61,166 bases of DNA from Oscillospiraceae bacterium (lineage in GTDB: Bacteria > Bacillota > Clostridia > Oscillospirales > WRJC01), in contig WQYZ01000003.1 in assembly GCA_009780985.1 (NCBI GenBank), forward strand, positions 1 through 61,166, written 5' to 3'. Numbering within the stretch: position 1 is the stretch's first letter; each line of letters starts with the position of its first letter. Below are positions 36,059-61,002 of this stretch, piece by piece. Under the pieces are notes generated by a model. That model saw only the letters and a program-made list of their open reading frames with translations, was not told where the DNA came from and made no database searches. A program made the position numbers and the translations under genes.

Positions 36059-36535
36059 TTATTCGGTACGTTTAGAATATAAAAAATTATCTATTTCGTC
36101 CGCACGCTCAAATCGCCCAAGTTTTCTATAGGCTGAACTTTCATAGGAAAGATTCAATACAGGTAATTTCATATTTTTATAAACTATTTGTTCTATAAAC
36201 GGGCGTAAGTCAATTATATCTTCCCAAATATCATTGCATTTCTTTTGAATATCTCCCATTACTTCAATTTCCACTCCATTGATTGCAAAATATCCGATAT
36301 GTGACCGTACTTTTTCTATTGCTGAAAATAAAACAGGTCTTACAACATAATTCTTTAATAACTCATTAATCTCATATGCTCCCGCTTTATTTGTTTGAAT
36401 ATCAATATCGCGGGGGGTTAATTTCATCCCCTGAATTGTAAACGATGTACTTCCAGTTAGTACCCAAATTATTTCTCGCTGATTTAAATAATTGTATATA
36501 GTAACCAAAGCCGAATCTTGATTTAAACTTAACAT
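36059..36535 (-). CDS. Nucleotidyltransferase-like protein
   Basis: A protein of about 158 residues from the ATG at 36535, which has CGGAG ten bases upstream; the frame stays open to 36640 but that part has no ribosome site. WVLTGSTSFTIQGMKLTPRDIDI has the pattern of a minimal nucleotidyltransferase (G-S near the start and a D-x-D pair, here PRDIDI). No partner HEPN gene lies next to it, so a toxin-antitoxin role is not supported. Function unknown. Confidence 0.65.
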   Translation of the reverse strand: MLSLNQDSALVTIYNYLNQREIIWVLTGSTSFTIQGMKLTPRDIDIQTNKAGAYEINELLKNYVVRPVLFSAIEKVRSHIGYFAINGVEIEVMGDIQKKCNDIWEDIIDLRPFIEQIVYKNMKLPVLNLSYESSAYRKLGRFERADEIDNFLYSKRTE

Positions 36536-36673
36536 CTTGCTATCTCCGAATATAAACTTTCCACGTTTAAATAATAATTTAAAACTATTTAATAATATAA
36601 GTATAACATATCGCTTATAATTCGTCAATGAAATAATCATTATTTTTCAAAAATTTATAAATATAAAATAAAA

Positions 36674-43588: not shown

Positions 43589-43617
43589 TTGACATCTAAT
43601 AAAAAATATGATATAAT
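43589..43617 (+). promoter_or_regulatory. Consensus promoter of tRNA-His
   Basis: TTGACA (43589-43594) and TATAAT (43612-43617) with a 17-base spacer match the sigma-A consensus exactly. The predicted start lies about 60 bases before the tRNA. Confidence 0.88.
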
Positions 43618-43682: not shown

Positions 43683-43757
43683 GGTGGGTGTGGCTCAGTT
43701 GGTTAGAGCGCCAGGTTGTGGCCCTGGATGTCGCCGGTTCAAATCCGGTCATTCACC
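43683..43757 (+). tRNA. tRNA-His (GTG)
   Basis: The sequence folds into a full cloverleaf. The acceptor stem is GTGGGTG/CATTCAC, with an extra G(-1) at 43683 facing discriminator C73 at 43757, the identity mark of tRNA-His. The anticodon arm is CCAGG-TTGTGGC-CCTGG with anticodon GTG. The D-arm has GGCTCAGTTGGTTAGAGC, and the T-arm is GCCGG-TTCAAAT-CCGGT. CCA is not encoded. Confidence 0.97.
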
Positions 43758-43764
43758 CTATGGA

Positions 43765-43806
43765 AAAAATCCCGATATATTACGATATATCGGGATTTTT
43801 GTTTTT
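43765..43806 (+). terminator. Rho-independent terminator of tRNA-His
   Basis: A perfect 16-bp stem (43765-43780 with 43785-43800; AAAAATCCCG and CGGGATTTTT at the base) closes on the four-base loop TACG and is followed by GTTTTT. Confidence 0.9.
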
Positions 43807-43835: not shown

Positions 43836-45101
43836 TTACTGTAAATCTACAGAAGCATTAAGTATATCCTCGAACGCCCAGTGATTTGCAGACAAGTCAT
43901 TATATAAACTCCGTAAACTGTCAGGAATTTTATCAAGGCTTGGTCTGCCAAGTATACGATTGACAATTACCACGCATTCGGCGCGCGTAATATTCGCCTC
44001 AGGTCTGAATGTATTGTCCGGATAGCCGGACAGCCATCCTTTGGCGTATGCTGATGCAATGCTTTCGTATGCCCAGTAGTCTTTTGAAATATCTGTGAAT
44101 GGTATAGTTGCGTCGTCTAAAATATCATAAAAACGTGATGCAATTACTACAAATTCTGCTCTTGTGATGGGTTCGTTGGCTCTGAATGTATCGTCCGCGT
44201 AGCCTCTCAGTATGCCTTTTGAAGCTAAATATGTCACCGCTTGCGCGTACCATTCGTTGCCGGTTATATCGCTGAATGGGTTGACAATAATATCATTTTT
44301 ACTGCCGTCTTTTACCAAACGGAAGAATATCATAGCAACTTCAGCGCGAGTAATCGCAATGTCCGGTTTTACGCTTCCGTCCCCGTAGCCGCTGATATAC
44401 TTTTTGCCTGTTTCAAATGGATTGCTATTATTTGTTATAATATTACCTAAAGCTTGCGGTACAGAATTATCTGGAATGTCTTTGGTTTCTTCTCCTGATG
44501 CCGTCGTTTCAGCTCCGTTGGTTCCTGTGCCGCCGTTGTTACCGCCGGTTCCGGTACCGCTGTAGTCAGGGTGAGGCGTAACAGGAGCAGGAGGAGCAGG
44601 TGTAACGTTAATCGCACCGTTCACGCCGTTCAATGGAAATGGATTTTCTATATCGTTGGCTGAAGCCGCCTGAGCGGTAACTGTTAATGATATTGTATCA
44701 GTCGTAACACCGTTCGCTATTTTGAAACTAAGAACAGCCAATTTGCCATTTACATTGCTATCTTTTAAACCGTCGTTAGACGCAGTAACTGTAACACTCC
44801 CTTGTTTATTCGCTACATCGGACTTAGTTGATACAAACGCTACTGTTTCTGCAAATACATCAAATTGTTGTGCACATCCTAAGTACGTTAATTTTGTATT
44901 GTCATAGCTAACATCAAATTCATATCCTGCGATACCTGTGTTACCCGATAATTCCACCGGCACGCTCACCGTGTCGCCTGCTTTACCTGTTACCGTACCT
45001 ACCGTTATTGTCGGGCTGGCGGCTAAAACCACCATAGGCAGCATACTTATCACCATCATAACTATAATAATCAGACAAAATGTTTTTATTAATTTTTTCA
45101 T
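43836..45101 (-). CDS. Cohesin-SLH cell-surface anchor protein
   Basis: A 421-residue exported protein: signal peptide (1-28), a cohesin domain at about 30-165 (TITVGTVTGKAGDTVSVPVE, then YDNTKLTYLG), a Pro/Gly/Thr linker (about 165-215), and three S-layer homology repeats (about 225-421) with the ITRAE motif repeated (ITRAEVAMIF, ITRAEFVVIA, ITRAECVVIV). In cellulosome-forming clostridia this architecture anchors dockerin-bearing proteins to the cell wall. The large protein encoded just upstream on the same strand has a dockerin-like end and a cohesin, and would be a natural partner. A good GGAGG precedes the ATG. Confidence 0.9.
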   Translation of the reverse strand: MKKLIKTFCLIIIVMMVISMLPMVVLAASPTITVGTVTGKAGDTVSVPVELSGNTGIAGYEFDVSYDNTKLTYLGCAQQFDVFAETVAFVSTKSDVANKQGSVTVTASNDGLKDSNVNGKLAVLSFKIANGVTTDTISLTVTAQAASANDIENPFPLNGVNGAINVTPAPPAPVTPHPDYSGTGTGGNNGGTGTNGAETTASGEETKDIPDNSVPQALGNIITNNSNPFETGKKYISGYGDGSVKPDIAITRAEVAMIFFRLVKDGSKNDIIVNPFSDITGNEWYAQAVTYLASKGILRGYADDTFRANEPITRAEFVVIASRFYDILDDATIPFTDISKDYWAYESIASAYAKGWLSGYPDNTFRPEANITRAECVVIVNRILGRPSLDKIPDSLRSLYNDLSANHWAFEDILNASVDLQ

Positions 45102-45150
45102 TGCATGTCCTCCGTTTTTTTATATTTTTTATTTTTTAACGTTTATAACA

Positions 45151-48100
45151 TTATTTTAACGAATATGCCGTAGTGAATTCCCTGAAAGCAAGCGTGTCAT
45201 CCTCAATGTCGCCTGTAACTCCCAATGCCAACTGCCGCGCCGCGCCAAGCTCATCAAGGTTCTTGTCGCCGTAATATCGGGAGAATATCATGAAATCCTT
45301 AAAATTCAAATCCCCGTCGCCGTTCAAATCAAACTTGACTACAACTGTTTTCGTGTCTTTATTATCGCCGTTCTCCAAAATAATTACCATTCCTGTGCCA
45401 AGCAGAGTATCCGGGTCTGTGATTTCATTGCCTTTACGGTCATATACTTTTATATTGTCGTGGTTATTCGCAAGTTCGTTCAGCAGGTCGCCGACTGTTG
45501 TTCCGTCTCCTGCTATAGAGCCGGTTATGAATCCGTTCTCAATATTGAAGTGCGACCCGCCTTTCAGGGTTATTCCCAACGGTTCATATATCGCCGTAAC
45601 AGTCAAGTCACCTTCGATGTCGCTGAAATCAGTTACCTTAGTGTTCGAATCAGTGAACCAGCCCGTGAATTTGTAACCTGGTACAGCCGGTGCCATGGGC
45701 GCAGTCGCAAATTCGCCGTACTTCACACTCTGTTCCTTTATCAAATTGCCGTCTTTATCGTTGAATATAACCGTATATGTGTTTTTATCGTATTGTGCTG
45801 TCACTGTAAGGTCTGATTTTATATTGCTGAAATCAGTGACTTTAGTGTTCAAATCAGTAAACCAACCTTTGAACGTATAACCTGTCCTCGTCGGATTTGT
45901 CGCCGGAGGCGTCGCTGACGTATTGTAGTCTACCATTTCACTTTTTAGCGTCGTACCATCCCAGTCTACGAATGTCACCTCGTAGCTGTTTATCTTATAT
46001 TGTGCCGTAACTGTGAGGTCGCCTTTGATATCTTCGAAAGAGTTGTCCCAACCTGTGAACGTGTAGCCTGTTACTGCCGGTGCTGTAGGCGCTGTTGCCG
46101 ATTCGCCGTATTTCACCGTCTGCGTATCGCCAATCGGGTTGCCGTCAAAGCCTATGAACGTAACCATGAAAGTAGGAACGGTTATTTTAATCCAACCGTC
46201 GCTTTTTGTGATGTCGGAAATCGGAACCTCGTCTGAACCAAGAAGAACGGAATCAAGCGATAAATCTACTTTAGCATATGTTACTGCGTCATCTTTTATT
46301 TTGAATTCAAGAGTAAACATAGTTCCGTCACCGGAGAAAACCGAAGAACCATTATCTGCAGTAACCCAAAACTTTCCGGCTGCATTTATCTCATTCAAAA
46401 AACCTGGCATAAACCTTCCGTCTCCGGCGGCAACGCTATCGGCAAATACGTCACTTTGCTCACAGCCTACATACTCTAATTTTGTATTGTCGAATGTTAT
46501 TTCGACTGTATATGTTACGATACCCGGGTTTTCCGTCAATGTAACCGGCACCTTTACCGTGTCGCCGGCTTTGCCTGTTGCCGTACCTACCGTTACTGTC
46601 GGATTATTTGTTGAAATCAGTTCCCACTCCGCCGTCAACTCTACGTCTGACGTAATCGGCGTGCTGAAATCGAACGCGGATCCCTCGTCGTCAGAATACC
46701 AATAGCAGAAATTGCAGCCGTCTTTAACTGGATCTGGCATTGGTCTGTCTACATAGTCGCCATTTGTCACTGGCACTGTGGTTGGATCGGTTCCATTGTC
46801 TGCGTCGAATGTAACGGTATAGATTATTGCCGGTACTTCTTCCCATTGTGCCGTCACGGTCGTGGGTTCGGTGATATTGCTGTAATCTCCAACCCAGCCA
46901 ATGAACGTGTAACCCGCTTTCGTCAGATTTGTCGGAGGCGTCGCCGTTTCGCCGTATGGAACGCTGTCAGTTCCGAGTACAGTAGTGCCGTCGCTGTCTA
47001 CAAATGTAACATTTATATTATACTGCGCTGTCACAGTTGTGGGTTCGATGATTTGGCTGAAATCTTCGGGGTCCCAGCCTGTGAACGTATAGCCTGTCCT
47101 CGTCGGATTTGTCACCGGAGGCGTCGCTGACGTATTGTAGTCTACCATTTCACTTTTTAGCGTCGTACCATCCCAGTCTACGAATGTCACTTCATAGCTG
47201 TCTATCTTATATTGTGCTATTATGGTGAGGTCGCCTTTGATATCTTCGAAAGAGTTGTCCCAACCTGTGAATGTATAACCTGTTCTCGTTGGATCACTCG
47301 GAGCTTTCGCATTGCCGCCTTCTGCCACGCTCTGCTGTTCGCCAATCTTATCGCCGTTCCAGTCTTGGAATATTACCGTGTAGTATGTCGTTACCGGAAC
47401 CGCCGTCCACTGTGCTATAAGCGTTACATCTGATGTGATCGCCACACCGAAATCAAACAACGTAGCTCCGCCGTAGCTCCAGCCGTCGAATGTGTATCCG
47501 TCTTTACTTGGGTCTGCGGGCTGTTTAGCCTTACCGCCGTCTGCCACTGTCTGACTGTCTGCCAGAGTTGTTGTGCCGTCGCTGTCGAAAAATGTTACTT
47601 TGTGGGTAACTGTAGGAGTTGTTCCGTCTGGAATAAACACAACGTCCCTTAAATAATTGTGACCGAGCGATACGGCTGGATATGTACCATATGCGGAGTA
47701 AACCCCTGTTTGCTTCGGATACGAAAGATTACTGCCATTATCTCCCGCACTTTCGGGATTGTTTGAGATCGCCGCATAATTCCCAGCCGCGTCGGTGGAA
47801 ACGGAAACGGTGTAGCTGACATCGGCTTTAACAGGCGTAGATGTTATTGGTAGGTATACCCAACCGTCATTGCCGTCAAAACTTACAGTGTCCTCGTAAA
47901 TTGCCTCACCAGTGCTGTTGTTGTATATTGCCACATGATGGTCTCCGGTTTCTTCCGCATACGCGAACACCCTAATATATGTTATCGTTCCGTCTACTGA
48001 TGGAGTGAATATTGTTCCCAGTTCACATGTTCCCGAGTTTGTGCATAGAATAATTCCGTCATCCGTGCTCAGATCGCCCCAAATTGTTTCGGCGTTGTCC

Positions 48101-51100
48101 GGTAGAACGAAGTCGCCGCTCGCTTTTACGGTTATTCTGACCGTATAGCTCGCTTCGTTCGTTCCGTCTGTCGCGGTGAACGTCACGGAATATATTCCGT
48201 GTTGTCCGACGTCAGGCGTCCAACCGAACTTCTGAGTATCAGAGTCAAAACTTGCGCCGCCAGGCAGATTAGCCGCAGAGTAAGTCAAGTCTCTGTCACT
48301 GACCGCGTGTACTGTGAAGCTGAGGCTGTTCCCCTCCGCTACGGTTTTATCTGCTATCGCGTCAAATATTGGAGTGTTATCCACCTCTGCCGCGTTGACC
48401 GTAACGTCAAAGCTCGTGGTTTTGGTTACTCCATTTTCGGTGTAGCTCACTGTCACAGTCTGAGTGCCTTCGGTATCGAGTTTTGAACCCTCAGCCGGAT
48501 TCGTTTTGTAGCCGCTGACTGCCTTGCTATCTTCGCTGCTGTAGGTCGCCGTTACCACCATACCTGTAAGGTCAAGGACATCGCCTACGGTATATTCTAT
48601 CGTTTTCGGCGGGGTTGTGACGGCTAACTTATCCAGTGTCACCATTGGCGGCTCTACGCCATCGGGAATGAAGACAACATCACGAAGGTAATTACAGCCG
48701 TATGTGTCCGTAGGGCGTGCCGTGAACGTTAAGTCTGTGTTAGCTACACCAAAATTATCTGGATAGTAAAGGCACCCGCCGTTGTTCCCACTGACCGAGG
48801 CATGTTGGATGGCTGGATAAGCCGTTGCGTCGTCCGTGCCAGTTGAAACAGAGACGGTGTAGTAGACGTCAGCGTCGATATGAAGCGGACTATCTAAATT
48901 ATAATACTCCCATTTATTTGCTCCGGTATAGTCAAACACTTCCGGTCCGAAGACTAGGTCCCCGTCATTGTTCCATATTGTGATTGTGTGCTCACCTGTT
49001 TCCCCTGGGATTCCGTATACCCTTACGGATGTTATGTTACCCGGTTCGGATGAATAGAACACAGTCCCTAAGTTATATGAAACGCCGTCTCCCTGGAATG
49101 CCCCTATGTCGGCTGTTTCATCGATATTGCCCCAGATGGTTTCCTCGCCGCCCTGCGGGACAACAGTTGCGGTTACGGTTATTGTTATTGTTTTGTTGCT
49201 GACCATTACCCCGTCGTCCGCCGTAAATTTTACGTTATACACACCGGACTGTCCGACGCTCGGCGTCCACTTGAATTCGCCTGTCTGCGCATTAAGAGTC
49301 GCGCCGTCGGGCAGCACATCCGCCGAATATGTAACCTGTCCGTTTTCGCTTGTTGCGAGTACGGTAAAACTGAGGCTTTCGCCTTCCTTCACGGTTTGAT
49401 CAGTCAAGTCAGAAAAGGTCGGAGCCTTGACCGCGCCGTCGTTCGGCACGAATACTACATCACGCAGATAGTTGTTATGATATTGATTATCCATGGGCTG
49501 CGTGCCTAAGTCGCCGTATACCCCGGCATATGCAGGATAAATGAGGTTCTTCCCATTGTTGCCCGCAGTTGCCGGCGAATTGTTGATCGACGCGTATAAA
49601 TACGGGTCACTCAATTGGGTGGAGACAGAGACGGTGTAGTAATGTCCGGCTTGAACCTGCACAGGTTCGGGTAATTCTATATAGACCCACTCGTTATCGC
49701 CCGTATATGTAGCAGTACCGCTGTAAATTTGCGTTCCGGGCACGAAAGCCGCGTCGCTTTCCCAAATGGATACGTTGTGAGTACCGGTTTCCTGCCCAGA
49801 GATATTCGCGTCGCCGTATACCCCACTGAACCCGAATATTTTGACGTGGGTTATCTCACCGTCAACGATCGGGGAAAACACCGTCCCAAGCTCGTACGCC
49901 CCGCCGTAACCCGCCGTTATGCCTTTTACGGAGGTACCCCAAATGGATTCGGAGTTATCCGGCAGGTTGTAAAAGCTTTTCACGGTTATCGTGATGGTCA
50001 CGCTGTCGAGGCTCAGCTTGTCGCTCGCGGTGAACGTTATGTTGTATACGCCGTATTGCCCGACACTCGGCGTCCACTTGAATTCGCCTGTCTGCGCGTT
50101 AAGGGTCGCGCTGTCTGGCAGTTTGTCCGCCGAAAAGGTTATCGGGACCAAAACCTCATTGCCGCCGTTATCCGCTGACAGCGTAAATCCTATCTGATCC
50201 TTTTCCGTTACGGTTATGGAATTCCCATCCACGTTGGACTGTATTGTCACCGCGGGGATGGCGTCGTTGGAATACTCAGCCGTAAATAAATCGCCGTCGT
50301 GCGCAGTGACGAACGCGTATCCGTTGCCTTTGACGGTTTCAACATCATAGCCGCTGGCCGGAACGCCATTTATGCTTTCCAGAATATGCCCATCATAAAA
50401 AGCTGGAATCATCGCGGTTAGGTTCCCGTAACCCTGACCCTGCGCTGGGGAAGAGACATTGAACGTCAGGACGCTCGTATTATTGTCCCAAGCTATGTTT
50501 TTGAAGCTTGCGCTGTCGCGCATGTTAGTGAAATTGTACATATCCCTGCCGCTGCAGATGGGGATGCCGTTGCTTTTAGAATAAGCCAATACTTGTACGG
50601 CTTCGCTCTTATAGCCGCTTCCGTCTCCGTTAAGCCAGCCTGCGGGATGGAAGTTGGCGGTCAGCCAGGCATAGTCCTCATTATTAAGGGCGTTGTCAAG
50701 CATTGTTTTATAATTTGCGGCTATAGTATAGTGGAAATATTCGTCCGGAAGCTGGGTGTCGTTCTGGTATATGTCCAGCACCTCGCCCTTGCTTGTGGAG
50801 AACTTCATGGGCATACCGCTTCCGTTCTCAAAGCCGGGGTTGCCGAGGTTCAGGAAGTCAAACACATTATAATAGTTGAAGTCCATCATAATGCCGTATT
50901 TCCGCTCTAACATTGCCTGAGCGGCGAACTCCGGCAATCCGTTTGAGTCTGTGCCGCACCATATCACACAGTGGTTGCGCACGGAAGTCGGTGACGGGCT
51001 GACACTGCCATATTTATTGTCGAAAATACTCTCAGCACTTGCGATAGTCGCGTCCGCAGACGCCCAAGACGGCTCAGATGCGTGCTCGAAATGGATCGCG

Positions 51101-52140
51101 AACTCATTACCTTCGTCAGTCCATGTCTTGATCTGCGCCGGCGAATCTATCATGTCGCTCACCCACGAATAAATGGATGCGTGACCGCCGTAACTCATAA
51201 CGGTATTGAATTCGTCCGCAAAATTTTGCTGCGCGCCATCCGAATCGCCCGTAAAGACAGTCATCGCCTTTTTACCGTCGGGGAAGTACCACAAGCGCGG
51301 CAAAGGCATCGTGGAGGTGTTCATCCATTCGATTATGTGAGACAGAAGCCGCATTTGCTCATCCGCCTGTGGTATTTCGACTTTTGTGTTGTCGTTGTAT
51401 GAACCGCCGTCTTTTTGGTACATTAAATCCCCCGCGCGGAGATAACCGTCATTGTTCGTATCCACACCTGCGTTGGCTGGATTCCCCTGCCTCGTATACA
51501 CGATGCTTTTGCATAGATCGAATGAAAACGCGGCTGTTCTGCCTCCGCCGTATTCATTCGCCGCGACTGCGGCACTGCCGGAATCTGTAACGCTGTTGTT
51601 ATATAAAGACGCTATTTTGCTGCCGGTTGTGAGTCCATATTTATCCGCGTCGCCATGGAATTTCATGGTTTCGGATATCAACCCCCGACCGATTTCAGTG
51701 GAAGTGTCAATTTTTATGTACCCTTCGGAAACTGCGCCGGATGTGCCTGAAATTCCGAATAGATTATAAAGCTGTGCGTCCGGCTGTATCCCGATTAAAT
51801 TTCCGCCGTCATTCACATATTGCTCAAGCATTGCGCTCTGCTCTGACGTGACTGATGTTTCTGTCAGAATAACTACGTCAAACTGATTGAGGTAATCTTC
51901 TGATAGATTATTTATATCTTCTGTTTCAAATTCATTGAATCCTTCTTCTTTTAATATCTCGCCCATATACGCGCCAAACGTGTTTGCAGAGTTGCTGTTT
52001 ACTACTAGAATAGGGTTTGATGAGCTTAGAGATGCCGAAGTATTTTCATCGGCTGCAAATATCGTAGTGGAAGGAAGAAGCCCGAATAACATACACACAA
52101 ATAATACAAAAGCCAATAATTTTCTAAATTGATTTTTCAT
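45151..52140 (-). CDS. Giant multidomain surface protein with deacetylase-like, cohesin and dockerin modules
   Basis: The 2329-residue exported protein has a signal peptide (1-29); an alpha/beta domain resembling ThuA/glutamine-amidotransferase folds (44-140); a polysaccharide-deacetylase-like region (about 285-600) with TGDSD (297-301) and HFEH (350-353); then Ig-like He_PIG modules (about 640-720, 906-990, 1255-1340), each with DSATLNAQTGEFKWTPSVGQ-like sequence, alternating with DUF4082 modules (733-898, 1000-1158, 1350-1504). A Big-type Ig domain lies at 1168-1250, five InlB-type repeats at 1513-1840, a cohesin at 1847-1990, three more InlB-type repeats to 2186, and a dockerin-like end whose first repeat, DLNGDGDLNFKDF (2271-2283), has all calcium ligands while the second is degenerate. 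AAGGTG precedes the ATG. Domain family calls are good; catalysis is unproven. Confidence 0.9.
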   Translation of the reverse strand: MKNQFRKLLAFVLFVCMLFGLLPSTTIFAADENTSASLSSSNPILVVNSNSANTFGAYMGEILKEEGFNEFETEDINNLSEDYLNQFDVVILTETSVTSEQSAMLEQYVNDGGNLIGIQPDAQLYNLFGISGTSGAVSEGYIKIDTSTEIGRGLISETMKFHGDADKYGLTTGSKIASLYNNSVTDSGSAAVAANEYGGGRTAAFSFDLCKSIVYTRQGNPANAGVDTNNDGYLRAGDLMYQKDGGSYNDNTKVEIPQADEQMRLLSHIIEWMNTSTMPLPRLWYFPDGKKAMTVFTGDSDGAQQNFADEFNTVMSYGGHASIYSWVSDMIDSPAQIKTWTDEGNEFAIHFEHASEPSWASADATIASAESIFDNKYGSVSPSPTSVRNHCVIWCGTDSNGLPEFAAQAMLERKYGIMMDFNYYNVFDFLNLGNPGFENGSGMPMKFSTSKGEVLDIYQNDTQLPDEYFHYTIAANYKTMLDNALNNEDYAWLTANFHPAGWLNGDGSGYKSEAVQVLAYSKSNGIPICSGRDMYNFTNMRDSASFKNIAWDNNTSVLTFNVSSPAQGQGYGNLTAMIPAFYDGHILESINGVPASGYDVETVKGNGYAFVTAHDGDLFTAEYSNDAIPAVTIQSNVDGNSITVTEKDQIGFTLSADNGGNEVLVPITFSADKLPDSATLNAQTGEFKWTPSVGQYGVYNITFTASDKLSLDSVTITITVKSFYNLPDNSESIWGTSVKGITAGYGGAYELGTVFSPIVDGEITHVKIFGFSGVYGDANISGQETGTHNVSIWESDAAFVPGTQIYSGTATYTGDNEWVYIELPEPVQVQAGHYYTVSVSTQLSDPYLYASINNSPATAGNNGKNLIYPAYAGVYGDLGTQPMDNQYHNNYLRDVVFVPNDGAVKAPTFSDLTDQTVKEGESLSFTVLATSENGQVTYSADVLPDGATLNAQTGEFKWTPSVGQSGVYNVKFTADDGVMVSNKTITITVTATVVPQGGEETIWGNIDETADIGAFQGDGVSYNLGTVFYSSEPGNITSVRVYGIPGETGEHTITIWNNDGDLVFGPEVFDYTGANKWEYYNLDSPLHIDADVYYTVSVSTGTDDATAYPAIQHASVSGNNGGCLYYPDNFGVANTDLTFTARPTDTYGCNYLRDVVFIPDGVEPPMVTLDKLAVTTPPKTIEYTVGDVLDLTGMVVTATYSSEDSKAVSGYKTNPAEGSKLDTEGTQTVTVSYTENGVTKTTSFDVTVNAAEVDNTPIFDAIADKTVAEGNSLSFTVHAVSDRDLTYSAANLPGGASFDSDTQKFGWTPDVGQHGIYSVTFTATDGTNEASYTVRITVKASGDFVLPDNAETIWGDLSTDDGIILCTNSGTCELGTIFTPSVDGTITYIRVFAYAEETGDHHVAIYNNSTGEAIYEDTVSFDGNDGWVYLPITSTPVKADVSYTVSVSTDAAGNYAAISNNPESAGDNGSNLSYPKQTGVYSAYGTYPAVSLGHNYLRDVVFIPDGTTPTVTHKVTFFDSDGTTTLADSQTVADGGKAKQPADPSKDGYTFDGWSYGGATLFDFGVAITSDVTLIAQWTAVPVTTYYTVIFQDWNGDKIGEQQSVAEGGNAKAPSDPTRTGYTFTGWDNSFEDIKGDLTIIAQYKIDSYEVTFVDWDGTTLKSEMVDYNTSATPPVTNPTRTGYTFTGWDPEDFSQIIEPTTVTAQYNINVTFVDSDGTTVLGTDSVPYGETATPPTNLTKAGYTFIGWVGDYSNITEPTTVTAQWEEVPAIIYTVTFDADNGTDPTTVPVTNGDYVDRPMPDPVKDGCNFCYWYSDDEGSAFDFSTPITSDVELTAEWELISTNNPTVTVGTATGKAGDTVKVPVTLTENPGIVTYTVEITFDNTKLEYVGCEQSDVFADSVAAGDGRFMPGFLNEINAAGKFWVTADNGSSVFSGDGTMFTLEFKIKDDAVTYAKVDLSLDSVLLGSDEVPISDITKSDGWIKITVPTFMVTFIGFDGNPIGDTQTVKYGESATAPTAPAVTGYTFTGWDNSFEDIKGDLTVTAQYKINSYEVTFVDWDGTTLKSEMVDYNTSATPPATNPTRTGYTFKGWFTDLNTKVTDFSNIKSDLTVTAQYDKNTYTVIFNDKDGNLIKEQSVKYGEFATAPMAPAVPGYKFTGWFTDSNTKVTDFSDIEGDLTVTAIYEPLGITLKGGSHFNIENGFITGSIAGDGTTVGDLLNELANNHDNIKVYDRKGNEITDPDTLLGTGMVIILENGDNKDTKTVVVKFDLNGDGDLNFKDFMIFSRYYGDKNLDELGAARQLALGVTGDIEDDTLAFREFTTAYSLK
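45872..46070. repeat. Intragenic DNA repeat, copy A
   Basis: About 200 bases encoding InlB-type repeat units are nearly identical (about ten differences by eye) to 47084-47282, offset by 1212 bases (404 codons). The two copies flank the cohesin-coding part of the giant gene. Confidence 0.8.
47084..47282. repeat. Intragenic DNA repeat, copy B
   Basis: Partner of 45872-46070 in the same orientation. Recombination between the copies would delete or duplicate the 404-codon segment containing the cohesin module without shifting the frame. Confidence 0.8.
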
Positions 52141-52742
52141 AATACACCTTCTATTATTTTGATTATATATTGTTTTTATTTATGCCTATTCAATCTTTGA
52201 CATCCTTTAATTTTAACAATATTTTAAGAAACGTCCGTATTTTTTTATATCCAGTGTAATATGCGCACCTCGGAAATCTTAAATTTCCATATTTTTATAG
52301 ATTTAACGCTACCGGCAATCACCTTCTCTTCATTTCAGACTTATGATTTACATTTTAATATTCTTAAGTTTATTTTAATAAAAGCATTGTACCATAATCG
52401 TCAAAAAAATGCAAGCGATTTCTTAAAATTTCCTTAACTATACGAATAATTAAAAAATAATTCATAAAATTTATATCGATTTTGCAAAATTCATTCAAAA
52501 TAATGTCATATAACGTAAAAGTCGTGTTTGTAATATATTATTTTACTTTTATGCGGCATATCTTTGAAAAATAGATATTTTTAAATAAAAAGGCGATGAA
52601 ATATTTATAAAAGTCAATGGAATTTATTATTTTTATGTATAATTTTGTTTGAATTTAATCTGTTCATATAATTCCAATTTGTCATTAAGTTTATTTGTTC
52701 TGTAAAAACGGTTTAATTTTCCGTTTGAATTTAAGCAAAATA
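52141..52742. other. Long AT-rich intergenic region
   Basis: About 600 bases upstream of the giant surface gene hold no reading frame that looks coding. A weak promoter (TTGAAT, about 18 bases, TATATA) may lie within 50 bases of its ATG on the minus strand. I compared the stretch at 52261-52340 with riboswitch patterns and found no convincing match. Confidence 0.45.
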
Positions 52743-52783
52743 AAAAAGCCCGTCATCGCCTATAACGGCAAAAGCGGACTTCT
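52743..52783 (-). terminator. Terminator of the GH30-like gene
   Basis: On the minus strand AAGTCCG pairs with CGGGCTT (one mismatch) around an inner GCC/GGC hairpin, followed by TTTTTTATTTT. It lies about 40 bases after the stop codon. Confidence 0.6.
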
Positions 52784-52823
52784 TTATTTTTTTATTTTGC
52801 GGATAACATCGGTCTTTACGGAT

Positions 52824-55049
52824 CTATTGGCTGTTCTTCGTTTTAACTTTGTGTCGAAACCAAAAGAATATTAACGCCCCTATTGTTATAACTATAATTA
52901 CAGTTATTATAATTATTACTTCCGCCGGTATTTGTTTTTGAATATCAGAAGCAGTCGCAGTCAATATTTCTGTCTTCGTTATCTCACTCGCAGGATTTGT
53001 GTTTGTTACCGGTGTTTCTATGCCGGCGACGGCGTTTTTATCATTGTTGGCAGAATTGACAAAATCCGCATCGTTGGCAGAAGTGACAACGACAATGACG
53101 GTGTTAGTGGGAACTTCCACGACAATGCTGCCATTTTCAAGATTGCGAGGGGGCAAAACCTTCGGCTCGTAATTGTTCGGAGCGACTTTGCCGCCATTCA
53201 TCGAAATTTCTTCGTCAAAATAATATACCGTCGCCGATTTGCCGTTAAGATTATTTAAACGGTAATATCTGTCCGTCGTTTTCTTCGTATCAGCCAGTAA
53301 GACGATATCGGCATTGTCGTTTCTCCATGCGCACATGTCTATACGCTCGCCCATTGCCGTGTTTATCTCCGGGTCGTCCGTTTCAAGTAAAGCTACTTTG
53401 GAGCCGGGTACGGCATTTTTGTATATTATAGAGAGTAAGTTGTACTGCATACTCTTGTTTAACGTCGTGGTCCCGTTGCCTGACAGAAGCGTTTCCTGAT
53501 TGGGAACGTTTATTTCGTACCCGGACGCAAAGGCAGTCCACCAGAACCAGTCGTTTATGCGGGCATTTACCATGTTGGAACTGAGCACTTCGGCGAGATC
53601 CATGGTTTTGGAAAGCATTGTAGGACTCGGCAGCCCTTCACCGGTGCAAAATTCCGTCATCCATGCTTGTTTTTCAGGATACAGCTCCAATGCTGCGCGC
53701 CAGTTGCGCACATCATTGTCGCTGGTCCACCCCGGATGAACATAAGCGTGAACAGCGACTATTGGAATCGCCGAATTTAATTCGGGGTCGGCGGCGAATT
53801 GACTGAATTTATTGCCAAAGAATTTTATATTCCTCAGGAAAACGTCTCCGATGCCAATCAAGGGAACATCAGTATAACCGGCGGCATCAAGCGTTTTGCG
53901 CATAAGTTTTGCAACCCGTACATATTGTTCCGGCGTGTATAAGCACGACTGATAATCAGCGACATTTTCCGGTTCATTCTGCAAATCGAAAGCATATGGC
54001 TTGGGCAATCCCAAATCTTTAGTAAAGTAATCAAGACACTTCACGATGTAGTCGCAGTAGTCCTGTTCATTTTCGACTTTGAGCGAAGCGTCAGTTCCGT
54101 CGGCGTTCAGTCCGCTTATTGAATTATTTGTTTTAAATTCCGGCGGCGGCGTCCATACGCTTAACAGGTACTTCTTGATTCCATACTCGCAACCGCTTTT
54201 TATAGCGCTTGCAACCTGATTCAACCGGTCATAGTCGAGCGTTTTGTTCGGACCGCCGCATTCGCCGTATAATTCAATACGGTAATTCGTTATGCCCATG
54301 TCTTTAAATACGGCATCTTTAAGCAGCGTTCTGCCGTCTGTTCCCGAGCTGTCCGAACCGAAAAATACTCCCCAGTCGGTAATCTCCTGCTGCAGTTCTC
54401 CTGTAAGGGTAATATTGTATATATCAGGATTTACATACGGCTCTTGGGGAACTACAACAGTCTCGACAGTTTTGTAAGGCGGCGGTAAATTCGGGTCATT
54501 TGTCGCGGTAAGGGCGAAACCGGAACCCAACGCTTCCCATGCCTCGCCAAAATCTTTAGGCCACAAAACCTTTATGTATTTGGAATTTATCCCCGTTAAA
54601 GTATATATTCCGCGAACCCAGGCGGCGCCAAGATCCGTTGCGTCTTTAGTATAATGGTCAAATTCTGTCCAGGGACCGTCCGGATTGTCGGATACTTCAA
54701 AACTGAAATCAACATCGAAAGTAGGATGCTTGACGGCTTTCCATACCAACGCCGTTATTTTGTCGTCAGGATAAGCCGCGCCGGGATATAAAATCATACT
54801 GCTTTCGTCCGAAGCGTCGTAATTACCCGCGGGCTGGAAGCACTCTGTGTAATCGGAATCCGCATTCCAGTGTCCTGCCTGTACCTGATTGTATGAATAA
54901 ATATTTTGGTCATCCATACCGCTGGCATCGCTTGCGCTTATATGCGCCGTTTCTGCAATCTGAGTTGGCGTTTCAGCCGCAAGAGCCTGTGAAGTTAAAG
55001 GCGTCATCATCGCGAAAAATAGCAAAAAAGAAATCACCTTGCCTTTCAT
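52824..55049 (-). CDS. Membrane-anchored GH30-like glycoside hydrolase
   Basis: A 741-residue exported enzyme: signal peptide (1-25), a beta-sandwich-like N-terminal region (about 35-185), a clan GH-A barrel (about 212-520), a small beta domain after it, a Thr/Asn-rich linker, and a C-terminal transmembrane helix (about 708-729) with a basic tail. The barrel has DLQNEPENVADYQSCLYTPE with acid/base Glu359 and WMTEFC with nucleophile Glu466, a pattern close to GH30 xylanases. Attack on xylan or a related plant polymer is likely but specificity is inferred. The transmembrane tail, instead of dockerin or SLH, keeps it at the membrane. It lies upstream of the cohesin/dockerin gene on the same strand. 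Confidence 0.85.
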   Translation of the reverse strand: MKGKVISFLLFFAMMTPLTSQALAAETPTQIAETAHISASDASGMDDQNIYSYNQVQAGHWNADSDYTECFQPAGNYDASDESSMILYPGAAYPDDKITALVWKAVKHPTFDVDFSFEVSDNPDGPWTEFDHYTKDATDLGAAWVRGIYTLTGINSKYIKVLWPKDFGEAWEALGSGFALTATNDPNLPPPYKTVETVVVPQEPYVNPDIYNITLTGELQQEITDWGVFFGSDSSGTDGRTLLKDAVFKDMGITNYRIELYGECGGPNKTLDYDRLNQVASAIKSGCEYGIKKYLLSVWTPPPEFKTNNSISGLNADGTDASLKVENEQDYCDYIVKCLDYFTKDLGLPKPYAFDLQNEPENVADYQSCLYTPEQYVRVAKLMRKTLDAAGYTDVPLIGIGDVFLRNIKFFGNKFSQFAADPELNSAIPIVAVHAYVHPGWTSDNDVRNWRAALELYPEKQAWMTEFCTGEGLPSPTMLSKTMDLAEVLSSNMVNARINDWFWWTAFASGYEINVPNQETLLSGNGTTTLNKSMQYNLLSIIYKNAVPGSKVALLETDDPEINTAMGERIDMCAWRNDNADIVLLADTKKTTDRYYRLNNLNGKSATVYYFDEEISMNGGKVAPNNYEPKVLPPRNLENGSIVVEVPTNTVIVVVTSANDADFVNSANNDKNAVAGIETPVTNTNPASEITKTEILTATASDIQKQIPAEVIIIITVIIVITIGALIFFWFRHKVKTKNSQ

Positions 55050-55376: not shown

Positions 55377-56939
55377 ATGAATAATACAGCAATATATCTT
55401 AGGCTTTCTTCGTCTGACGAGAACTACGGCGAAAGCAACAGCATCAAAAATCAGCGCGATTTACTGACGATGTTTGTCGCAAATCAGCCGGATTTACGCG
55501 AGACAAAAATCATAGAGGTATGCGACGATGGTTACAGCGGCACTAATTTTGACCGCCCCGGAGTGAAACGTCTGCTTGAACTCGTAAAAAACGGCGAAGT
55601 GAAGTGCATACTTGTCAAGGATTTTTCGCGTTTCGGCAGAAACTATATCGAAACCTGCGACTATATCGAGCAGATTTTCCCAAGCCTGGGAGTGCGGTTC
55701 ATCAGCGTGAACGACGGTTATGACAGTGACAAAACAGATATGTCGGCAGGCAATCTCAACGTCGCGTTTATGAATCTGATTCATGATTTATACGCCAAAG
55801 ATATATCCACAAAAATCAAAACCGCGCAAAGAGTCCGTTGGGAAAAAGGCGAAATATCAACCCCTTCCACGATTTTTGGCTATGCCAAATCACCTGACGA
55901 CAAGCATAAAATTGTTATTGATAAGCCTGCGGCGGATATAGTCAAACAGGTATTTAACATGGCGGCAAATGGTTACGGAACTGCGGAGATAGCGCGATTT
56001 TTGAACGCGAATAATATACCCACGCCGGGTAAATATAAAAAACGCGCCGATAAAGTTAATAACGACTCGTCAATATTTTGGACTAATAGTATGGTGCGTA
56101 AAATTATAACGGACGAGAAATATACAGGCAAGGCGATATTCGGTAAAACCCGCAGAAAAGCCGTCGGCAGCAGACAAATTCTTGAAGTGAACAGAAACGA
56201 GTGGATAATAAAAGAAAACGCCTTTGAAGCGATTATTACGGAAGATATTTTTACCCGGGCGCAGAAAAAAGATTCAAGAGAAAGATTACCCGTTCATAAA
56301 CAAAAAGAACAGCGCATAATATATGGGAAAGTCCGCTGTTATAACTGCGGGCGTCTCATGGACCGCCGGACTTATAAAAATCCCGTATATGTATGCGAAA
56401 CACCGAAATTCATCAATTCGCCGGGCTGTGTCCGCGGGCATACTTCAGAGAGAGCGGCTGCGCACTGCCTGTTTGAGATGGTACGAATAAGATTAGAAAT
56501 TTATTCAGATTCAGAAAATGACATATTGAAACGTAACGAAGCTGATTTATCAGAGAATAAACGCCGCCAAATATCGCTTAAAATACAAGAAACCCGGCGC
56601 TTGCTGCAGAAATTGTCGCAAAATCAAATATCGTTGTACGAGAGTTATCAGGATAAAAAAATAAGCCGCGAACAATATTCAACCGAACGCGAAACGTTCA
56701 ATTCGCAGATTGAAAGCCTCGAAAATCAGTTACAGTTGTTAAGATCCGAACTTGAACTGACTGCGCTTCCTAAATCCGCGCCGCCTGAACAAACTTATAT
56801 GCGGTCTGTGAACGGCACGGAACTATCGCGGAAAATGGTTGATTGCCTGATTGACGGCATTATCGCATACGGCGCAGACAGAATTAAGATTAACTGGAAA
56901 ACGTCTGATGATTTGACCCTCATTGAAAAAAAGCGGTAA
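55377..56939 (+). CDS. Large serine recombinase
   Basis: A site-specific DNA recombinase of 520 residues. The resolvase domain (about 1-150) has nucleophile Ser11 in YLRLSSSD and DFSRFGRNY (82-90). A recombinase domain (about 165-265) has IFGYAKSPD and AEIARFLNANNIPTP. A zinc ribbon with Cys321, 324, 340 and 351 follows, then a coiled coil (about 400-455). It resembles TnpX/Tn4451-type and phage-like integrases of clostridia. The length is complete. No other transposon or phage genes are nearby, so it may be an orphan or the relic of an element. The ATG lacks a textbook ribosome site apart from AAGCGGAAA. Confidence 0.93.
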   Translation: MNNTAIYLRLSSSDENYGESNSIKNQRDLLTMFVANQPDLRETKIIEVCDDGYSGTNFDRPGVKRLLELVKNGEVKCILVKDFSRFGRNYIETCDYIEQIFPSLGVRFISVNDGYDSDKTDMSAGNLNVAFMNLIHDLYAKDISTKIKTAQRVRWEKGEISTPSTIFGYAKSPDDKHKIVIDKPAADIVKQVFNMAANGYGTAEIARFLNANNIPTPGKYKKRADKVNNDSSIFWTNSMVRKIITDEKYTGKAIFGKTRRKAVGSRQILEVNRNEWIIKENAFEAIITEDIFTRAQKKDSRERLPVHKQKEQRIIYGKVRCYNCGRLMDRRTYKNPVYVCETPKFINSPGCVRGHTSERAAAHCLFEMVRIRLEIYSDSENDILKRNEADLSENKRRQISLKIQETRRLLQKLSQNQISLYESYQDKKISREQYSTERETFNSQIESLENQLQLLRSELELTALPKSAPPEQTYMRSVNGTELSRKMVDCLIDGIIAYGADRIKINWKTSDDLTLIEKKR

Positions 56940-58896: not shown

Positions 58897-61002
58897 TTAT
58901 TTTATCCCCTGCGCCAATAAAACCATAAGCCTGTTTAAAACGGTCGCGGCTTCCGCTCTTGTAAGAGTTTTCGCGGGCATAAACATGCCGTTTGAACCTT
59001 GTAAAAGTCCTAAATTTGTGCAGGTCCTCACGTCGTTTGTATATACCGGATTTATGGAGTTCAAATCGGAATAGTTAAGCGCGGGCGTAATAAATTTTGA
59101 CGTGTCGATTCCCGCATATTCCGCGGCTCTCGCTATCATATACGCCATTTCCTCGCGCGTGACCGCTTTGTTCGGATTATAGTCAAGCCCCGTCGCATAT
59201 CCGTTAAGCCCCATTGTATCGCCGGTTTGAATGTCGTTATAAAACCAATCCGAAGATTTTACGTCGCTGTAAGTCTTTGCAGTTTTCGGCGCGGGCGCGT
59301 TATATATATTTGACAAAACCCTTGTCAGCATTGCGCAGAATTCCGCGCGCGTCAAAGTGCCGTCGGGTTGATAAGTTCCGTCCGTATAACCGTTTACTAT
59401 AAACGAGTTCGCGGCGTTTAATATATCGGTTTTTGCCCAATGATTTGATATGTCGCTGAAGCTCGCGTTTCTCTGCGCTATCCAGTATGTGACTGCGCTT
59501 CTCGGCAGTTTTATTTTTATTACGCCGCCGGATTTAACCTGAGGAATCGGGAAAGCCGGGCTGCTCGTTATAAATCTGTAACTGTCGTCTTTTACGGGAA
59601 CGCTTAAATAAACGTTGTCAGGGAATTTACCGTTCAAATAAGCGGAACCTACACTATTGCCCGATTTGTCGTATACGGTGAAAGCGATGAAGTACAGAAA
59701 CTGCTGAGACGTGTCCATTTTAACCGCGAGATTATAATCCCCGGTCAGATAATCGCTTTTCAAGCCGTTTGCATAACTGAACGGAACGTCCAAATATCCG
59801 CCCGCAGTGAAATTAAATCTGAAAACTCCGTTGTTATATTGTTTGCAGAGGTCGGACATTGTCTTTGCGTTTATCAGACAGGTATAAACTCCGGTTTTGA
59901 TATTGTAACTGTAAATCCCGTTGTTTATATTGCTTATATTGTCCTGAACGTCAAACTTATCGATAATTGCGCCGGTCGAGTCAATTACGGTGAAGTTTAT
60001 ATTCGGGGTTTTTACCGGAACTGCCGTATTTTTCGTCGAGAACGTTGTTATGCCTGTCGTCTGTCCGGCGATTGTAACGATGCACGACAAAGTTATGGTT
60101 ACATTATTTATCGTTATGTCAACCATATATCTTCCGGAGTAACCTTCTGAAGCATTGTTTATTACAAGAGTGTCTCCCGTAGCGTTTGATATTAAAGTGC
60201 CTTTGGAATACCATTGATATTGTACAGAAGAATTGTTTTTATCGCTTACGTCAACTGAAAGCTCCAAATCTATGCCCGCCGCAGCATATATATTTGACGG
60301 AACTTTATGAAAATTCCACTCCACTTTTCTGAAATTACTGAACACGGAACTGTCGTATCCCGCTGCGTCCGACGGGATTATAAACACGCAGTTTGACGGA
60401 ACCCCGGCAAACGCGCTGCTTACTGCATTGTAAGCTGCGCCGTTTGAATTGAACGCCACCACTGTTTTAAGTCCGGCGCAGTTTGCAAAGGCATTTTCGC
60501 TTATGCTTGTCAAATACTGCGGAAGCGCAACGCTGTCGAGAACGTAACAGTTTGAAAAAGCGTTCGCGCCGATTGTCTGCACATACGGGCTTATACTAAC
60601 GTTTAAAAGAGAGTAGCAGTTCGCAAACGCGCTGTCCCCTATCGCGGTTACGCTCATCGGAATAGCTATGCTCTGTAAACCTGCGCAATTCTGAAACGCT
60701 CCGTCGGGAATTTTATTGTCTTTGAATGTCGCGTCTGTGAGATTAAGAGATATAATATTCGGCAGAGTTTTTATAAAATCACAGTCGGCTTTTGTGATTT
60801 GTCCGTTTCCGGTTATAGTCAGCACATAAACGCCTGTGTCGTTTGAACCAAACGCGGTTTCAAAATCCGCGTCGGAGCTGCTGTAATTCACCGTAAGATA
60901 AGCCGACGCCGCCGATATGGCGATATTCATAACCGGCACAATCAGAAATACCGCAATCAACAGAGATAATGCTTTTTTTAATTTATTTTTCATATTTACC
61001 AT
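58897..61002 (-). CDS. BspA-type leucine-rich repeat protein with SLH anchor
   Basis: A 701-residue exported protein: signal peptide (about 1-31), leucine-rich repeats of the BspA/LRR_5 type (about 80-205; IPDGAFQNCAGLQSIAIP, then IGDSAFANCYSLLNVSI), an Ig-like domain (about 230-313; VQYQWYSKGTLI), a beta-rich region, and three SLH repeats (about 520-700; SDISNHWAKTDILNA, TRAEFCAML). It should be bound to cell-wall polymers and may mediate adhesion. The start ATG at 61002 has AAGGATT about ten bases upstream. It is the second SLH protein in the window. Confidence 0.9.
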   Translation of the reverse strand: MVNMKNKLKKALSLLIAVFLIVPVMNIAISAASAYLTVNYSSSDADFETAFGSNDTGVYVLTITGNGQITKADCDFIKTLPNIISLNLTDATFKDNKIPDGAFQNCAGLQSIAIPMSVTAIGDSAFANCYSLLNVSISPYVQTIGANAFSNCYVLDSVALPQYLTSISENAFANCAGLKTVVAFNSNGAAYNAVSSAFAGVPSNCVFIIPSDAAGYDSSVFSNFRKVEWNFHKVPSNIYAAAGIDLELSVDVSDKNNSSVQYQWYSKGTLISNATGDTLVINNASEGYSGRYMVDITINNVTITLSCIVTIAGQTTGITTFSTKNTAVPVKTPNINFTVIDSTGAIIDKFDVQDNISNINNGIYSYNIKTGVYTCLINAKTMSDLCKQYNNGVFRFNFTAGGYLDVPFSYANGLKSDYLTGDYNLAVKMDTSQQFLYFIAFTVYDKSGNSVGSAYLNGKFPDNVYLSVPVKDDSYRFITSSPAFPIPQVKSGGVIKIKLPRSAVTYWIAQRNASFSDISNHWAKTDILNAANSFIVNGYTDGTYQPDGTLTRAEFCAMLTRVLSNIYNAPAPKTAKTYSDVKSSDWFYNDIQTGDTMGLNGYATGLDYNPNKAVTREEMAYMIARAAEYAGIDTSKFITPALNYSDLNSINPVYTNDVRTCTNLGLLQGSNGMFMPAKTLTRAEAATVLNRLMVLLAQGIK

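Follow-up and report, generated by a model that had tools for sequence, protein, structure and literature searches.

A Giant Cohesin-Dockerin Protein and an Adjoining SLH Anchor as a Candidate Two-Gene Surface Display Unit in an Oscillospiraceae Bacterium

Introduction

Surface assemblies built on cohesin-dockerin pairing have been described before, as have SLH anchors and monovalent adaptors (PMC11557425, PMC5814915, PMC12997984). Cohesins and dockerins outside cellulosomes are likewise no recent finding, as far as can be told from their citation in later papers. Paenibacillus guangzhouensis carries cohesin-SLH anchors and adaptors with a single cohesin and a single dockerin, some of which have an N-terminal enzyme, together with almost no other dockerins (PMC11557425). 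The locus described here resembles that system in encoding such an anchor (P1) and such an adaptor (P2). However, P. guangzhouensis has 28 adaptors and 5 anchors, many of which include GH modules, whereas here one adaptor adjoins one anchor, no GH is recognised in the adaptor and the genome contains a lipase-type dockerin protein (PMC11557425). In the amylosome of Ruminococcus bromii, Amy4/Sca1 likewise combines cohesin and dockerin in one protein, and Amy4 binds a cohesin held in the wall and may bind itself as well, as is predicted from sequence for P2; that system comprises amylases and sortase-anchored scaffoldins, in contrast to the SLH anchor and the absence of an amylase in the DNA analysed here (PMC5814915). 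Clostridium perfringens NagJ-type complexes assemble by pairwise cohesin-dockerin contacts without a multi-cohesin scaffold, as we propose for P1 and P2, but consist of host-glycan glycosidases, unlike the present pair (PMC12997984). Acetivibrio thermocellus CipA shares with P2 the order of its end, in which a cohesin is followed by an X module and a dockerin (CipA fragment 3kcp), and cohesin-SLH anchors occur in both systems, although CipA has many cohesins and a CBM3, as against a single cohesin and no recognised CBM in P2. The C. perfringens complexes are not known to have an SLH anchor.

What appears less described is a very small, gene-linked form with one adaptor, one anchor and a lipase-type rather than fibre-degrading partner, which recurs in differing shapes across the order. 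Our literature search found no description of such a form, and one may exist. Low-copy linked pairs escape cellulosome surveys because these demand a multi-cohesin scaffold and dockerin-bearing glycosidases.

Results and Discussion

Gene Order and the Wall Anchor

The window, by which we mean the whole stretch of 61,166 nt that was analysed, contains three adjacent ORFs on the minus strand at 43836-45101 (P1), 45151-52140 (P2) and 52824-55049 (P3), with coordinates and a same-strand arrangement exactly as given in the original prediction; all features of these genes listed below lie on the same strand. P2 and P1 are spaced by 49 bp, with a GGAGGA ribosome site ahead of P1 and no terminator between them. 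The spacing between P3 and P2 is 683 bp and includes a terminator-like hairpin 3' of P3 (52750-52768), which parts P3 from the other two genes. At the opposite end, a 16-bp hairpin with T runs on either side (43765-43800) is terminator-like in both directions and could serve P2-P1 as well as a tRNA-His gene on the opposite strand. The short gap and the hairpins flanking the pair suggest that the transcription unit is most likely P2-P1, with P3 merely a neighbour.

P1 (421 aa) begins with a signal-peptide-like N-terminus, followed by a cohesin at aa 31-166 (44604-45011; PF00963, 60.4 bits) and three SLH domains spanning approximately 43869-44429 (PF00395 x3, 122.3 bits), in agreement with its earlier reading as a cohesin-SLH wall anchor. 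Under the published classes, in which SLH domains combined with one or more cohesins define an SLH-anchoring scaffoldin, these Pfam scores place P1 in that class (PMC11557425).

A Giant Surface Protein with a Divergent Dockerin

P2 (2329 aa) is a large surface protein with a signal-peptide-like N-terminus, a ThuA-like start, an uncharacterised region, three DUF4082 domains, Ig-like domains, eight List_Bact repeats, a cohesin, an X-like module and a dockerin. The ThuA-like stretch (aa 57-119, 51784-51972) scores 30.0 bits, just below the cut-off of 33.4. Free-standing relatives of the N-terminal module occur in distant genomes only (37% over aa 159-470 in G306), and none was found in the genomes of the order or in the contig-collection scan. 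An HxxH motif had led us to consider a polysaccharide deacetylase at aa 280-560, a guess without Pfam support that was set aside. The AlphaFold model of the N-terminus (mean pLDDT 38.3) was too poor for a fold search. The single cohesin lies at aa 1848-1986 (46183-46599; Pfam 56.9-63.6 bits).

The tail of P2 comprises an X-like module at about aa 2199-2268 (45337-45546), also present in dockerin tails from other members of the order, and a dockerin at aa 2269-2329 (45154-45336). We took type I dockerins (PF00404) to require a score above the curated cut-off and two complete calcium-loop repeats, and the P2 tail has neither: it scores 13.3-15.5 bits against a cut-off of 22.9, and while its first calcium loop (aa 2271, DLNGDGDLNFKDF, 45292-45330) is intact, its second repeat (aa 2310, GDIEDDTLAFREF, 45175-45213) is degenerate, with calcium-loop residues lost. 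Nevertheless, dockerin proteins of six other genomes have C-terminal tails to which that of P2 can be aligned over both X-like module and dockerin. When these six sequences alone, with the window left out, were made into a profile, it scored 38.5 bits against aa 2212-2295 (E 8.4e-11), whereas the lowest E-value among 500 shuffled P2 tails was 0.18. In a phmmer search of the PDB the last 82 residues had the dockerin chain 2y3n_B as their best match (E 1.3e-6), and a longer segment matched the CipA fragment 3kcp at the cohesin and, more weakly, at the X-DocII end. Despite the low PF00404 score, these alignments and profile matches identify the tail, at the level of sequence, as a true yet divergent dockerin behind an X-like module. 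The model of this region (mean pLDDT 42.7) was too poor for a fold search, and a contig-collection scan with the P2 X-dockerin returned matches in just two genomes, both seen before.

The family-profile check thus came out as anticipated for the cohesins and SLH domains but failed for the dockerin with PF00404, for which the held-out profile was positive. The double-ended architecture originally ascribed to P2 is upheld by the cohesin (56.9 bits) and the held-out X-dockerin match. With exactly one cohesin by Pfam and a dockerin assigned by homology in the same protein, P2 is classed as a monovalent adaptor scaffoldin (PMC11557425).

The GH30-like Neighbour

P3 (741 aa) matches GH59 (PF02057, 31.4 bits) and GH30_2 (PF14587, 28.5 bits) weakly, just above cut-off, and its closest solved structures are the GH30 enzymes 5cxp and AcXbh30A. 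Its NEP (aa 357) and WMTE (aa 463) glutamate motifs align with the GH30 structures 5cxp and 7n6h, and a hydrophobic helix is found at the C-terminus (aa 707-731). These features fit the GH30-like enzyme with a membrane anchor first described. Its proposed part as third partner of an assembly is not supported: Pfam and dockerin searches of the protein found no dockerin, it has its own membrane anchor, and 683 bp with the terminator-like hairpin lie between it and P2. We therefore rejected P3 as a member of the assembly.

Two Related Cohesins

A comparison across 394 genomes shows that the P1 cohesin has its closest relative in the P2 cohesin and vice versa (45% identity, E 2.8e-20; the next best gave 7.7e-12). 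The start of both is encoded by a direct DNA repeat of 147 nt (44868-45014 and 46456-46602, 75% identical), a sign of local cohesin duplication, and the two domains diverge beyond the first strands. Among solved structures both resemble type I cohesins. The dockerin of P2 is nearest to a Cel48 dockerin chain (2y3n), which comes from B. cellulosolvens and has a type II cohesin as its partner, so that the match between the P2 dockerin and these type I-like cohesins is not obvious. In two other genomes (G017:C7 and G021) the cohesins of adaptor and neighbour are likewise mutual best matches; this within-locus similarity does not hold in G057.

Inventory of the Genome

The gut-type clostridial genome is a fragmented MAG of 4.9 Mb in 387 contigs (88% complete, 6% contamination). 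Contamination of the window contig was considered and rejected, as the htpG adjoining P1 shares 79% identity with its counterpart in each of the two congeners, which places the contig in this genome; this rejection does not extend to the 3-kb contig C355 discussed below. Cohesins above cut-off were found in P1 and P2 only, one per protein. Outside P2, the sole real dockerin belongs to a Lipase_3 protein on C355 (L017, 1-2877), with an identical tail on C206. The Lipase_3 protein contains a GHSRGA motif, and its dockerin, with two repeats, is interrupted by the contig end. The dockerin end at the other end of C355 (3058-3174) is identical over 123 nt to the start of C206 (L019, 2-118), which suggests that there are probably at least two such genes and that assembly breaks may hide more; the two contigs probably carry tandem genes, with the assembly broken at their repeats. 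Other PF00404 matches were discarded, being calcium-loop motifs within solute-binding lipoproteins (C5, C4, C1 and C291) or located inside other proteins (C87, C86 and C192). Two RCC1-repeat surface proteins, one of them with a subtilase domain (C154, L021:1495-4554; C221, L022:1-1752), end in a cohesin-like domain below the Pfam cut-off (22.1 and 14.8 bits, respectively).

The expectation of further dockerin proteins elsewhere in the genome was thus confirmed by at least one, the lipase-type protein on C355. The multi-enzyme, cellulosome-like assembly envisaged for the locus was not: in the assembled genome (88% complete) we found no protein with two or more cohesins and no dockerin-bearing glycosidase, so the P1-P2 set is not a cellulosome as defined in PMC11557425, which asks for both of these together with demonstrated cohesin-dockerin binding.

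In the congeners, P1-P3 are missing beside htpG, and profile searches of their genomes detected no cohesin or dockerin at all, which indicates that the P2-P1 unit is accessory. The GC3 of P2 is 0.53, only slightly higher than in neighbouring genes, and base composition does not decide on horizontal import.

Linked Pairs across the Order

We sampled 59 genomes of the order, taking low copy as at most three each of cohesins and dockerins, and 15 of the 59 carry both in low copy. In 11 of these 15, a distance of about 3 kb or less separates a cohesin gene from a dockerin gene, compared with an expected 0.08 under a simple null of random gene placement (P about 4e-23); when each genus is represented by one genome, linkage is seen in 9 of 12 (P about 2e-19). 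Small linked cohesin/dockerin pairs therefore recur in the order. In G008 and G032 a cohesin-SLH gene directly adjoins a dockerin gene. G057 is most like the window, with a cohesin+dockerin gene and then an SLH gene, the cohesin of the SLH protein being detected by a custom profile only and not by Pfam.

Two families contain strikingly similar pairs, in which a protein with SH3_3, cadherin-like and dockerin domains is encoded beside a cohesin protein with an apparent membrane helix at its C-terminus (L087:5655-9590 in G016; L088:4519-8446 in G014). In G031 a GH25 lysozyme-type protein carries a dockerin (L094:7938-10196), which suggests cell-wall hydrolases as dockerin cargo in the order.

A Proposed Display Mechanism and Its Alternatives

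We consider it reasonably probable that P2-P1 is a two-gene unit that displays a giant surface protein through non-covalent contacts. The two proteins would be exported, P1 being held in the cell wall by its SLH domains and presenting one cohesin into which the C-terminal X-dockerin of P2 would plug. The N-terminal module of P2 and its long repeat stalk would thereby be placed outside the wall, where a role in adhesion or in lipid/glycan processing may be envisaged. The cohesin of P2 would offer one further docking site, either for another P2 molecule, leading to chain growth, or for the dockerin-bearing lipase-like protein encoded at another site in the genome. In cellulosome terms, the pair would supply the terminal anchor and adaptor while lacking the scaffold that gathers many enzymes; it has the look of a surface display system reduced to its essentials rather than of machinery for degrading plant fibre.

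The kinship of the two cohesins, their common 147-nt repeat and the two loci with a similar pattern favour a single dockerin specificity for both and hence chain growth. The P2 dockerin may accordingly bind P1 and P2 cohesins alike and build a head-to-tail, wall-tethered filament begun by P1, much as has been proposed for the self-aggregation of R. bromii Amy4, which likewise unites a cohesin and a dockerin (PMC5814915). We regard such a self-extending chain as a tentative and rather doubtful possibility, since the two cohesins diverge after their first strands and the pattern fails in G057. It is also unlikely, we think, that the P2 dockerin is a decayed remnant and that P1 and P2 are surface proteins from adjacent genes with no mutual binding. 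The sub-threshold PF00404 score and the degenerate second repeat would fit decay, but the first loop and the X-like module have been kept within an open frame of 2329 aa and cohesin/dockerin gene linkage recurs through the order.

Capture by the cohesins of dockerin-bearing proteins of other microbes, an idea put forward for P. guangzhouensis (PMC11557425), would account for two cohesins facing few own dockerins; we judge it very improbable, as own dockerins are present in P2 and in the lipase-type gene and the gene pairs linked in relatives suggest partners from the same genome. If the locus encoded a genuine miniature cellulosome that degrades polysaccharides, P3 would be its working partner, being adjacent, co-directional and equipped with both GH30 catalytic motifs. 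The missing dockerin, the membrane helix and the separate terminator-like hairpin of P3, together with an assembled genome that has neither a dockerin-glycosidase nor a multi-cohesin protein, make this reading highly improbable.

If binding in the display unit occurs as predicted, cohesin-dockerin pairing would serve as a simple wall-display clip, and pairs of this kind would provide small orthogonal modules for protein engineering and a tractable case for the growth of cellulosomes from one-to-one pairs. It is tempting to speculate, although we think it unlikely, that small, linked cohesin/dockerin sets are a general-purpose device for surface display, widespread in the order and unrelated to fibre breakdown, in which P2 would form chains from the SLH anchor that end in a lipase-type cap.

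Surroundings of the Locus

The tRNA-His gene (43684-43758, plus strand) lies between htpG and P1, is preceded by a perfect extended -10 promoter (43589-43617) and shares its terminator-like hairpin with P1; in the congeners it is not beside htpG. We considered it as an integration site and rejected this, there being no second copy of its 3' end anywhere in the window. A serine recombinase gene (55377-56939), oriented divergently to P3, lies at the outer end of the segment that the congeners lack; the segment is possibly mobile, yet no copy of the tRNA end serves as a flanking repeat. Elsewhere in the window, positions 36059-36640 encode a protein that matches the aminoglycoside 2''-adenylyltransferase family (PF10706, 60.9 bits), and a second SLH surface protein of 701 aa with BspA-type leucine-rich repeats is encoded at 58897-61002.
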